Positions 31,752-53,016 of a stretch of 64,000 nt of DNA are shown in pieces. The notes beneath the pieces are model-generated. The model was given only the letters and a program-made list of their open reading frames with translations. It was not told the origin of the DNA and ran no database searches. Source of the DNA: Longimicrobiales bacterium (lineage in GTDB: Bacteria > Gemmatimonadota > Gemmatimonadetes > Longimicrobiales > Gaopeijiaceae); the NCBI GenBank assembly GCA_951828585.1, contig OX639991.1, forward strand, positions 3,504,576 through 3,568,575. Reading direction: 5' to 3'. The number at the start of each line of letters is the position of its first letter. Position 1 is the first letter of the stretch. Made by a program: the position numbers and the translations under genes.

Positions 31752-33482
31752 TGTCGCGCCGATTTAGAAATGTCCTCCCTTAGCGAAGTAGAAATGTCCT
31801 CTTTCGGATCATGTTCGGTCAACGACGGAACCGGATCCGGGAGAGGAGCAAATGGACTTGAGTCTGAAGGAGAGGGATCGCATCTCGGTGTTGAGACAGG
31901 TGAAGGAGGGAGTGCTTAGCGCGGCTGCGGGAGCGGTGCGGATCGGGGTGACGCGACGGCAATTTCGCAGGTTGCGCCGGAAGTTCGAGGCTGAGGGCGA
32001 TGCGGCCGTAGTGCACGGACTGCGCGGGCGGCGGTCGAACAGGGCGTGGCCGCGGGGGTTTCGAGAGCGGGCGCTGGAAGTCGCGAGGGAACCGCTGTAC
32101 CGGGACTTCGGGCCTACGCTGCTTGCGGAGCACCTGGAGAGAAGCTTCGCGCTGCGGGTGAGCCCGGACACGCTGCGGGGCTGGATGATGGAGGCCGGCC
32201 TGTGGAAGCGGCAGCGCAGGCGGGCCAAGCACCGCAGCCGGCGTCCGCGGCGGGCGGCGTTGGGCGAGCTGGAACAGTGGGACAGCTCGGTGCATGCGTG
32301 GCTGGAGGACCGGGCTGCGGGCGACCAGGTGCTGATCTCGATCCATGACGATGCGACGAGCCGGCTGATGATGGCCCGCTTCGTCGAGCGCGACGACGGT
32401 GCGGAGAACCGCCGGGCGATCATCGGATACCTGCAGCGCCACGGCCGCCCCCTGGCTGTCTACACGGACCACGCCGGACACTTCGGGCAGTGGCTGGCGA
32501 AGAAGGAGGAGCGGACCGATACGATCATCTCCCGGGCGCTGGGCGAGTTGGGGGTCGAGGTGATCCTGGCAGGCTCTCCCCAGGCGAAGGGACGAGTCGA
32601 GCGGACCTTCGGTACGGCGCAGGACCGCCTGATCAAGGAAATGCGGGTGGCAGGGATCTCCACCCTTGACGCAGCGAACCGCTTCCTGGCCGATTCCTGG
32701 GTTCCGTTCTGGAACGAGCGCTTCGTGGTCGCGCCCCAGAGTGCCCTCGACGCGCACCGGCCCTTGCCGCCCGGCATAGATCTGGAGGCCCTGTTTGCCG
32801 AGACGGAGACCCGGAAGGTGGCCCGTGACTTCATCATCCGCTTCAAGAACCGGTACTGGCAGATCCCGGAGCGGGAGGCCCGAGGTGTTCGGCCCGGTGA
32901 CGAGGTCGTCGTTGAGCGCCGACTTTGCGGGGACATCCACTTCCGGATCGGCCAACGCTACCTGGCCGTCGAGTCCCTGGGTCGGGCCCGTCCTCCGGCA
33001 ACACCGACGAAGGCTCAGCCCGCGAAGCCCCGCAAGCAGGGGTCCAAGCCGCCGAAGCCCGCACCGGACCATCCATGGCGAAAGCAAATCCACGGGGGTG
33101 CCCGGATGGCCATGGCACGGCGGGACAAGCGCCTCGCGGAACAAGAGGCTGCGCGCAACGGACGGCCTGCCGATCTGCCGGATGCCGGACTCGCGAGCGG
33201 CGCTGATGGCCGGGGACCTCGCCGGAAATCGGATGCGGGATCGGTATGATCACCGCCTCGTGGACCCACACCGTCCGGGCAAGGCAGGGTGTGACCCAGA
33301 CCAACGCGACCGCCGGCAACCCCCCGATCTCCGGGCCGGGCATGCCCGTCCCTCCGATCGGGGGGTCCCACTACCCACCCCACCCCCAACCCGCTCAGGC
33401 TGGCCGGGAGTGGCAAACACCCACCCAGGGGGGGACATTTCTATTTCGCTCTACCCCCGGACATTTCTATTCCGGTTTGACA
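31752..33482 (+). mobile_element. ISNCY/IS1202-like insertion sequence, 1,731 bp
   Basis: The ends are related 24-bp inverted repeats starting TGTC and ending TAGAAATGTCC (31752-31775; reverse complement of 33459-33482). A second, inner pair AGCGAAGTAGAAATGTCC (31782-31799) and AGCGAAATAGAAATGTCC (reverse complement of 33433-33450) suggests two transposase-binding sites at each end. A 17-bp target duplication flanks it. It has interrupted a TonB-dependent receptor gene and appears recent, since the duplication is perfect. Confidence 0.95.
31852..33249 (+). CDS. ISNCY-family transposase (DDE integrase core)
   Basis: A 465-residue protein with an N-terminal helix-turn-helix region (SLKERDRISVLRQVKEG, AAGAVRIGVTRRQFRRLRRKF), a linker HTH (YRDFGPTLLAEHLERSFAL RVSPDTLRGWM) and an rve core: D166/D167 in SIHDDATSR, D206 in VYTDHAGHFG and E250 in KGRVERTFGTAQDRL. 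A basic Pro/Lys-rich C-terminal tail follows. ATG 31852 sits behind GAGAGGAG. The domain order matches transposases annotated as ISNCY, the group containing IS1202. It appears intact. Confidence 0.93.
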   Translation: MDLSLKERDRISVLRQVKEGVLSAAAGAVRIGVTRRQFRRLRRKFEAEGDAAVVHGLRGRRSNRAWPRGFRERALEVAREPLYRDFGPTLLAEHLERSFALRVSPDTLRGWMMEAGLWKRQRRRAKHRSRRPRRAALGELEQWDSSVHAWLEDRAAGDQVLISIHDDATSRLMMARFVERDDGAENRRAIIGYLQRHGRPLAVYTDHAGHFGQWLAKKEERTDTIISRALGELGVEVILAGSPQAKGRVERTFGTAQDRLIKEMRVAGISTLDAANRFLADSWVPFWNERFVVAPQSALDAHRPLPPGIDLEALFAETETRKVARDFIIRFKNRYWQIPEREARGVRPGDEVVVERRLCGDIHFRIGQRYLAVESLGRARPPATPTKAQPAKPRKQGSKPPKPAPDHPWRKQIHGGARMAMARRDKRLAEQEAARNGRPADLPDAGLASGADGRGPRRKSDAGSV

Positions 33483-49888: not shown

Positions 49889-51626
49889 CTACGCGATCTT
49901 CACCGTCACGATATCGGTGTCCAGGTACTGCTGGTGACGGACCGAAGAAGCGAAGTGACGCAGAAGCCTGAGCGAGATCTCGTGTTCAACGGGCCCGTCG
50001 GCCGGCTGCTCTCCGATGAGCGCCAGGCGGTCCTCGAGGTTGCCCTCGCCGAACGAGGCCACGAACTCCATCTCGGCGCCGTCGCGGCCGGGGCGGATGA
50101 CCACGCGGAGTCTGCGTGACCCGTCGCCCTCGACACCCTCGATCTGCCGGGCCGAGAGGGCCGCGATGGTTTCTTCGGCCACGAGCCGCAGGCGGTGGAC
50201 CATCTCTTCGCCCCAGCCCTTCCGCGACGACATGCTGCCGAGCACCTCGTCGATCTTTTCCAGTGCCCCCGCGTTCAGTTCCGTCTCGATGCGCTTTCGG
50301 CGCGGAGAGGCCAGCTCGAGGAATCCGGTCATGATCAGCGCTGCGAGGCCACCCGCGGCCATCCCGTTGCCCAGCAGTTCACCCGCCCAACCTTCCAGCC
50401 CTTCGGGGAAGAAGATGTTGTGCTGGAACCCTGTCCCGATCCAGAAGGATAAGACCGACGATCGCGGCCTTGCGGAAGTCCATGCCGTCCTGCACGACGA
50501 TCCTCATGCCCAGCGCGAAGAGGATCGCGATCATCACGAGGAGGTAGGACGCCGCGACGGGCCCCGGAATGGCCAGGAAGAGCGCCAACGCCTTGGGCAG
50601 GAGTGTGAGGGCCAGGAAGAAGAGGCCGATGTAGATCCCCACCCGGCGCGAGGCCACGCCCGTGACCTCCACGGTGGCCACGCCCGAAGCGCAGGTGGTA
50701 TTCGGCACCGTGCCCGCCAGACCCGAAAGAAGGTTTCCGACCCCGTCGGCGGCGACGGCGCCCTGCACGGAGCGGAAGTCGGTGGCACGCGGTTTGCGCC
50801 ACGAGACCTTCTGGATGCCCACGACATCGCCGACCGTCTCGATGGCCCCCACCAGCGTCACGAACACGAAGGCCGGCAACAGCGCCCAGAACGCCGGTCC
50901 CAGTGTGAAATCGAAGCCGGGCCAGCCGCCCTGCGGCAGTCCGAACCAGGCCGCCTCGGCCACCCGCTCCACCTCGTAGAGCCCGAAGTTGGCCGCCACC
51001 ACGCAACCCGCGACGACGCCGGCGATGGGGGCCCACCGGCGGACCCCGCCGGACCCGCGCAGAATCATGACGGCGGTAACGAGCAGCGTTACGATCGCGC
51101 TGACGTAGATGCCGGTTTCGCTCGCCCCTTCGGGCACCTCCTCCAGGAGCTCCGCGAGAACGGGCATGATCGTGACCGCAATGAGCATCATTACCGTGCC
51201 GGCCACCGTGGGGGTGATGATTCTGCGCAGCAGCGACAGCCGGGCCGCCAGCAGGAACTGGAAGAGCGAAGACGCAACAAGCAGCGTCATCAGGAGGCCG
51301 GGCCCCCCTTCGGTGAGCGCGGTCACGCAAACCGCGATAAACGCTCCGGAGGTGACCATGAGGAGGATGTAGCCCGAACCTATCCTCCCGACGCGCCGGG
51401 CCTGCATCATCGTCGTGATTCCGGAGATCGCAAGCGCCGCGAAGGCCGCCCACGCCAGGTAGGCATCGGTTCCGCCCGCGGCACGCACGACAACGACCGG
51501 AATCAGGATGATCTCCCCCAATTCGAGCATCATGAGCTGGAGGGCCAGAGCGAGCGCCAGACCGTGAGGGGGGTGTTCGTCAGGCTCGTAGCGGACGTTG
51601 GAGGCGTGTGGGTTGTTCAGAGCCAT
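49889..51626 (-). pseudogene. NCS2 (uracil/xanthine-type) permease fused to a HATPase-like domain, with one frameshift
   Basis: From ATG 51626 the first ~395 residues form an NCS2 permease (ALQLMMLELGEIILIPVVVV, VTLVGAIETVGDVVGIQKVS, VPNTTCASGVATVEVTGVASRR). Near 50445-50453 one extra base shifts the frame; reading on gives FWIGTGFQHNIFFPEGLEGW, a last membrane segment, then a 130-residue soluble domain: RLRLVAEETIAALSA, LRVVIRPGRDGAEMEFVASF and HEISLRLLRHFASSVRH, resembling an anti-sigma-type HATPase. The permease likely imports nucleobases. The shift could be a sequencing error. If real, the product is truncated. Confidence 0.75.
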
Positions 51627-51814
51627 AAGTCCTGTTTCCGGGCCGAAGTGCGTGATCGATGCGCCAATGTGCGACTTGCCCGCTCCGCAAACAACCGGCA
51701 TGGGCTCGGGGGAGCCGGGATGACGTTCCCGAGGGGTTGCGGCCCAGTGCCCGCGCACCTATGGTTCGCCCGCGTCAACTCCGCCCCCGGCCCTCTCCCC
51801 ACCACTCCACGCGC

Positions 51815-52516
51815 ATGCCCAGCGGCCCCAAATCCGTCATTGCAGGCCACCGCTCGCCTGCACCTCGAACCGCGCCGGCGCTGACCGACCTGGAACAGCG
51901 CATACTGGACTACATGGTGGTCTATCTCCGCACCCACACCTATCAGCCCTCAATCAGGGAGATCGGCCACCACTTCGGGATCAAGAGCACCAAGACGGTG
52001 TCGGAACTCCTTCAATCGCTTGCGGACAAAGGAGTTGTCGAGCGAGACCCGTCCCGCTCCCGCGGCATTCGCATTCTGGGTTTGAACCTCAACGCCCGTA
52101 CCGTGTCGCTGCCATGCTACGGCGACCTCGCCGAGGCCGTTGCCGGACTTCGTGGCGGCCGAACCGAAAAACGCGTGTGCCTGGATCGGCAGTTGGCCAG
52201 GCGCAGCGGCGGTTTCACGGTGTATGCGCCCGGTGACAGGCTGGCCGGGGCCGGAATCGGCGAAGGGGACCTCCTGGTGGTCCAGCCGGCGCGGGCCGAG
52301 GAGCTGGCCGACGGAGACATCGTCGTGGCCCGGGTTCGGGGAGTCACCGACTACCATCAGCTCGAGAAGCGTGGTGCGCGTGTGCTTCTGCGAGTGGTTG
52401 GGGGCGACAGGAGGGCCGTGGACGGTGTGGGGGAGACGGTCATCCTGGGAAGGGTGGCGGGGCTCTACCGTGAAGTGACGCCGCTTTCCTTCACGGGGCC
52501 CTTGACCGCGCACTAG
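51815..52516 (+). CDS. LexA-like repressor lacking the Ser-Lys catalytic dyad
   Basis: A 233-residue protein with the LexA layout: N-terminal winged helix (LTDLEQRILDYMVVYLRTHT YQPSIREIGHHFGIKSTKTV SELLQSL) and a C-terminal S24-like domain. The self-cleavage site Ala-Gly becomes Glu107-Ala108 (LPCYGDLAEA), the nucleophile Ser is Arg142 in APGDRLAGAGI, and the general-base Lys corresponds to His181 in VTDYHQLEK. Hydrophobic core motifs (GIGEGDLLVVQPARA, GDIVVARVRG) are kept. It probably binds DNA as a dimer but should not be cleaved through RecA. Start ATG 51815. Confidence 0.85.
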   Translation: MPSGPKSVIAGHRSPAPRTAPALTDLEQRILDYMVVYLRTHTYQPSIREIGHHFGIKSTKTVSELLQSLADKGVVERDPSRSRGIRILGLNLNARTVSLPCYGDLAEAVAGLRGGRTEKRVCLDRQLARRSGGFTVYAPGDRLAGAGIGEGDLLVVQPARAEELADGDIVVARVRGVTDYHQLEKRGARVLLRVVGGDRRAVDGVGETVILGRVAGLYREVTPLSFTGPLTAH

Positions 52517-52530
52517 GCAGCCCGGCCCCC

Positions 52531-53016
52531 GTGGCCCCCCCAACCCCCGGCAACCCCGACTTCGCGTGGATGGCGCGCGCCTTGGAGTTGGCCCGCGCGG
52601 GGGGTCTGCGTGGCGAGGTGCCCGTCGGCGCGGTGATCGTGAGGGACGGGTCGGTGCTCGCCGAGTCCCACAACCGCACGGTGGAGCGGCACGACCCCAC
52701 CGCCCACGCCGAACTCGTCGCAATACGTGCCGCCGCGCGTCGCCTCGGGGACTGGCGGCTCACCGACTGCACCCTGTACGTCACCCTGGAACCCTGTGCG
52801 CAGTGTGCGGGAGCGATCGTCCTGGCGCGCATTCCCCGCCTCGTCTTCGGCGCCCGCGACCCCAAGGCGGGCATGGCCGGCAGCCTCGACAACCTCGTGC
52901 AGGACCCGCGTCTGAATCACCGCGTGGAGCTGATGGACGGGGTGCTGGCCGACGAGTCTTCGCGGCTGTTGCGCAGGTTCTTCCGGGCGCGCCGGGGGAA
53001 GGGTGGCCAACCCTAA
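52531..53016 (+). CDS. tadA: tRNA-specific adenosine deaminase TadA
   Basis: TadA deaminates the wobble adenosine 34 of tRNA-Arg(ACG) to inosine. The 161-residue protein has DFAWMARALELARAGGLRGE VPVGAVIV, the zinc motif TAHAELVAI (H-A-E) and PCAQCAGAIVLARI, then VFGARDPKAGMAGSLDNLVQDPRLNHRVE and the tail LMDGVLADESSRLLRRFFRARR. It starts at GTG, 15 bp after the LexA-like gene. Its TAA stop (53014-53016) lies inside the palindrome at 53009-53031, so the last three residues are encoded by that palindrome and its edge. Confidence 0.94.
   Translation: MAPPTPGNPDFAWMARALELARAGGLRGEVPVGAVIVRDGSVLAESHNRTVERHDPTAHAELVAIRAAARRLGDWRLTDCTLYVTLEPCAQCAGAIVLARIPRLVFGARDPKAGMAGSLDNLVQDPRLNHRVELMDGVLADESSRLLRRFFRARRGKGGQP

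Follow-up and report, generated by a model that had tools for sequence, protein, structure and literature searches.

LexA2, a LexA-like protein encoded in a 64,000-nucleotide stretch of a Longimicrobiales genome (the window), is probably (we put this at about 0.7) a non-self-cleaving DNA-binding regulator of a regulon separate from SOS. A preliminary description of the sequence had placed Glu107-Ala108, Arg142 and His181 at the positions of the scissile bond, nucleophile and general base of LexA, within a protein that keeps the DNA-binding domain and the hydrophobic core of the peptidase fold. All three substitutions were borne out by an ungapped phmmer alignment to E. coli and Pseudomonas LexA and by a 111-sequence alignment, both of which pair Glu107-Ala108 with Ala84-Gly85, Arg142 with Ser119 and His181 with Lys156. 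LexA2 has neither the Ser-Lys dyad nor the Ala-Gly or Cys-Gly scissile bond of a self-cleaving LexA (S24 peptidase). We looked for a displaced intact Ser-Lys pair elsewhere in LexA2 and found none; the nucleophile turn holds no Ser, and the one Lys in the vicinity, Lys185 (LEKRG), pairs with E. coli Lys160 and not with Lys156. Because all 51 LexA2 copies read in the window's family are without the Ser-Lys pair, the loss of these residues is not due to chance or sequencing error. The residue alignments thus support the proposal that this LexA-like regulator should be incapable of self-cleavage.

The domain architecture was equally in line with the preliminary description. LexA2 scored 59.9 bits against PF01726 (cut-off 23.7), which identifies the DNA-binding domain, and 25.0 bits against PF00717 (cut-off 23.3), which identifies the S24/LexA C-terminal fold by a narrow margin. 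With 102.4 bits it fell under the cut-off (110.95) of TIGR00498, the LexA equivalog model, which dyad-intact LexA2 orthologues of families f3 and f5 pass (184.5 and 169.1, respectively). An AlphaFold model of LexA2 (76-sequence alignment; pLDDT 82, pTM 0.60) matched full-length LexA structures, its DNA-binding domain matching 1lea (Z 11.3 over 71 residues) and its C-terminal domain the LexA C-domains 1jhc, 8s7g and 8b0v (Z about 11). Structure prediction and LexA-family alignment, both suggested in the preliminary description, revealed a LexA fold and no intact Ser-Lys pair in the window protein.

The same description had called for a search of the genome for a canonical LexA, and one was found. 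The host genome, which is complete (1 contig, 4.47 Mb), encodes just two DNA-binding domains of the LexA type and just two S24 domains, with no further S24 protein, and it also encodes RecA. The other LexA, LexA1 (L001), has VAAGM, SGDSM and VKKL intact (i.e., Ala-Gly, Ser and Lys) and scored 201 bits against TIGR00498. The presence of this canonical protein in the same genome makes the window protein a second LexA, which is 28% identical to LexA1. In another Longimicrobiales genome (G196; 2 contigs, about 92% complete), RecA and a dyad-less LexA2 were found and canonical LexA1 was not detected.

Table 1 Features of the lexA2 locus (coordinates are positions in the window).
Feature	Coordinates	Strand	Evidence
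NCS2-type (xanthine/uracil) permease, divergent from lexA2	50379..51647	-	Match below family cut-offs
Candidate lexA2 promoter TTGCGG-17-TATGGT, without LexA1 box	51737..51765	+	Upstream DNA alignment; footprint conserved within genus
lexA2 (LexA paralogue, degenerate self-cleavage machinery, 233 aa)	51815..52516	+	Open reading frame; orthologues in nearly all family genomes
LexA winged-helix DNA-binding domain, residues 22-84, recognition helix STKTVSELLQSLADKG	51878..52066	+	PF01726, dN/dS, 1lea match
LexA/S24-like C-terminal domain, residues 96-222, dimerisation strands kept (VILGRVAGLYREV), peptidase dead	52100..52480	+	PF00717, LexA C-domain matches
Glu107-Ala108 at scissile Ala-Gly position	52133..52138	+	Alignments; Ala-Gly kept by no member of window's family
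Arg142 at nucleophile Ser119 position	52238..52240	+	Alignments
His181 at general base Lys156 position	52355..52357	+	Alignments; Tyr, Phe or His in 43/51 family copies
tadA (tRNA adenosine-34 deaminase), downstream neighbour, probably co-transcribed	52531..53016	+	NF008113 186 bits, cut-off 150

Distribution of LexA2 and of the cleavage residues

Most genomes compared were MAGs, and families and genera are referred to by code. Of the 61 genomes sampled in the window's family, 56 have LexA2 (counted as rows whose best E is under 1e-60); it was also found in most genomes of f2 and f3 (same order) and in f5 and f9 (same class); our guess is that f3 is Longimicrobiaceae and f5 Gemmatimonadales. 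It was not visible in the sampled genomes of f4, f7, f8 and f10, and a few small genomes are without it. In the f1, f2 and f5 loci that were read closely, lexA2 follows gltX. Its downstream neighbour is tadA in nearly all loci of Longimicrobiales and in f9, and pyrimidine genes often come after these; tadA does not adjoin lexA2 in f5. The divergent permease lies beside lexA2 only in the nearest relatives (i.e., the closer part of the window's genus). The spread across families and the kept gltX-lexA2-tadA order indicate vertical inheritance, and LexA2 is thus an old paralogue of the class Gemmatimonadetes, an ancient second LexA. Two loci stood apart in this survey. An f5-type LexA2 with an intact dyad (L058; G047:C143) was found in an f2 genome alongside that genome's own dead LexA2, which reflects either transfer or contamination, and L155 lies on a contig labelled Gammaproteobacteria (isolate Ww582) that carries a Gemmatimonadota gene set and is probably mislabelled.

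We read the three cleavage sites in 111 sequences, in which LexA1 is represented by a sample of 19. Ala-Gly, Ser and Lys were kept in all 19 LexA1 sequences. The Ser-Lys pair of LexA2 was intact in 11/11 copies from f3 and 9/17 from f5, and in none from the window's family (0/51), f2 (0/8) or f9 (0/3); single relics, either Ser without Lys or Lys without Ser, occur in f2. The replacement at the Lys156 position is not random in the window's family, being Tyr, Phe or His in 43 of 51 copies. When the trait columns were left out of the tree, the minimum number of dyad state changes was 5 (4-6 across 300 bootstrap trees), and a larger quick tree gave 6; with regain barred there were 9 losses, a figure that is approximate as it comes from one tree. 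The repeated losses within f5 rest on the sister pairs L205/L214 and L207/L209 and on L199 with L200/L202. In these alignments, dyad loss is a conserved trait that recurs across the phylum and affects only the second LexA copy. A more far-reaching reading, to which we would give somewhat less than an even chance, is that a self-cleaving LexA2 was converted at least 4-6 times, perhaps about nine, to an uncleavable regulator with its DNA-binding face unchanged, so that the same regulon was repeatedly cut off from DNA damage and the old active-site cleft possibly became a new sensor.

Promoters and recognition helices

The direct repeat TTCGG-N6-TTCGG was present upstream of lexA1 in 19 of 19 loci, usually as two pairs over the promoter, and essentially never in shuffles. 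TTTCG-N7-TTCGG-like repeats were found upstream of recA in 3/5 loci. TTCGG-N6-TTCGG is our candidate for the SOS box of Gemmatimonadota. In the host it lies at G000:C1:3332599-3332638 (- strand), upstream of L001; the further loci are L056-L073. The host genome holds 26 copies against 4 for the reversed control, a count inflated by the nine- to tenfold repeated TTCGGATCATGTTCGG. This 16-mer occurs at window positions 31803-31818 and eight or nine more times in G000, and G001 and G114 have it too; it is probably a coding motif conserved within a gene family.

Upstream of lexA2, by contrast with lexA1, the TTCGG-N6-TTCGG repeat was found in 0 of 90 cases, and the window has no LexA1 box near lexA2. 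LexA2 does not carry in its own promoter the SOS box through which an SOS master repressor regulates itself. Furthermore, recognition-helix positions 40, 41 and 44 are L/A/H in LexA1 and T/K/S in LexA2, nearly invariant in each. The differing helices and the missing box suggest that LexA2 recognises a different operator, and they take weight from the idea that it competes with LexA1.

Searches for a LexA2 operator upstream of lexA2 (palindromes, palindromic EM and direct repeats) returned no motif common across families. The candidate lexA2 promoter (Table 1) was not picked up by a strict sigma-70 scan, and a tRNA-linked promoter was considered and none was seen. Two strong dyads, CTCAC-N10-GTGAG and CACCC-N5-GGGTG, were rejected as operators, both being inside the upstream gltX coding sequence. 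In several genera of the family other than the window's (0/22 in that one), GAAA-N4-TTTC abuts the lexA2 -35 box. It looked like a LexA-type dyad but was rejected, being absent from the window's genus, and it may be a mere A-rich promoter element; its matches in f5 are gltX codons. The extended form AAGAAA-N4-TTTCTTGACA was seen at the lexA2 -35 box (L090-L148, e.g., L224), and the exact 18-mer only there in the six genomes searched. The host genome contains one perfect match to the full AAGAAA-N4-TTTCTT, which we treated as chance because it falls inside a pilP-like reading frame (L262, about 3010).

Constraint and the role of LexA2

Among dead-peptidase copies of close relatives, dN/dS was mostly 0-0.1 in the DNA-binding domain, the exceptions being 0.11-0.16 in a few very-low-dS pairs and 0.30 in the f5 pair L216/L218, and about 0.05-0.4 in the C-terminal domain, with most values in the window's genus between 0.1 and 0.39. 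Mean identity of the DNA-binding domain is 78% in the window's family; that of the C-terminal domain is 39% in the window's dead family versus 62% in f3 and 69% in LexA1. The C-terminal domain thus evolves faster than the DNA-binding domain, and its role could be minimal. Lost catalysis, a fast-diverging C-terminal domain and the few small genomes without the gene might be taken to mark a duplicate that is decaying and has lost all function. However, the reading frame is open in all copies read, dN/dS is low in both domains (below about 0.4 even in the C-terminal one), the synteny is old and the promoter footprint is conserved. lexA2 is not decaying, and this already disfavoured explanation is very improbable.

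LexA2 could instead modulate LexA1, damping SOS by competing for SOS boxes or by forming non-cleavable heterodimers via the shared C-terminal dimerisation strands. The two proteins coexist in nearly all genomes, share a fold and keep the dimerisation strand; however, their recognition helices are each nearly invariant and differ, the distinct direct-repeat box of LexA1 is absent from lexA2 promoters, LexA2 shows low identity to its own LexA1, and G196 has LexA2 and RecA with no LexA1 detected. We regard modulation of LexA1 as quite unlikely. Of the two roles raised in the preliminary description, answering another signal fits best, while competition with a true LexA is not supported, given positions 40, 41 and 44 and the box count at lexA2. 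Local control, either of the gltX-lexA2-tadA translation genes or of the divergent nucleobase permease, is unlikely, if a little easier to entertain. It would account for the adjacency of lexA2 and tadA across Longimicrobiales and f9, for gltX lying upstream widely, f5 included, and for the GAAA-N4-TTTC dyad at the lexA2 -35 box in several other genera, mismatch-free nowhere else in the genomes searched. However, that dyad is missing from the window's genus and may be only an A-rich promoter element, tadA is not beside lexA2 in f5, and the permease is a neighbour only in the nearest relatives.

The reading we prefer, a non-self-cleaving regulator of a separate regulon, would work as follows. 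LexA2 would dimerise through its LexA C-terminal domain, and its nearly invariant winged helix would bind operators other than those of LexA1. Without Ser, Lys and Ala-Gly, the repressor should not be removable by RecA-stimulated self-cleavage, so its regulon would no longer open on DNA damage. Something else would have to set its activity: how strongly it is expressed, a host protease, modification, or the binding of a ligand or partner by the remodelled cleft; dyad loss in the sequence is not proof that all proteolysis is absent. For LexA2 we infer that it dimerises, that it represses, that its regulon is separate and what kind of input it has, repression in particular because the motif searches found no operator or target.

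Precedents and significance

The closest functional precedent is LexA of Synechocystis sp. PCC 6803, which is without the Ala-Gly site and the dyad Ser, controls non-SOS genes and reportedly has its activity tuned, possibly by phosphorylation rather than cleavage (PMC7567884, PMC4759255). LexA2 resembles it in having a LexA fold without Ala-Gly and the dyad Ser and, judged by its sequence, in remaining constrained as a DNA-binding protein. However, the Synechocystis protein is that cell's LexA, in another phylum, whereas LexA2 accompanies an intact canonical LexA and is without both dyad residues and the cleavage site throughout the window's family. Leptospira interrogans Copenhageni also has a LexA2, a second, highly diverged LexA with its own motif, which keeps Ser and Lys, has Cys-Gly, is depleted after UV and is encoded within a prophage-like region in a single serovar (PMC3789691); the window's LexA2 is, in contrast, an old core gene without the dyad. 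Xanthomonas genomes carry two lexA paralogues, which arose by duplication within Xanthomonadales (PMC518961), and so resemble the LexA1/LexA2 pair; cleavage loss is not reported in the part of that source consulted. Streptococcus mutans IrvR, a LexA-like protein of another phylum, is described as a regulator outside the usual RecA paradigm (PMC7101444). What sets LexA2 apart from its closest precedent is that a second LexA, present alongside an intact one, lost its dyad repeatedly across a phylum. A literature search on LexA in Gemmatimonadota found no study.

With TTCGG-N6-TTCGG, Gemmatimonadota have a first candidate for an SOS operator, and a 'LexA' annotation in this phylum need not mean an SOS regulator. 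The living orthologues of LexA2 form a full series (intact, half-lost and fully lost) in which the DNA-binding face is kept, a natural experiment in which a protease-controlled repressor loses its input and keeps its output. Several related lineages lost self-cleavage independently, and what was an SOS-type switch seems to have become, time and again, a regulator that no longer responds to DNA damage.
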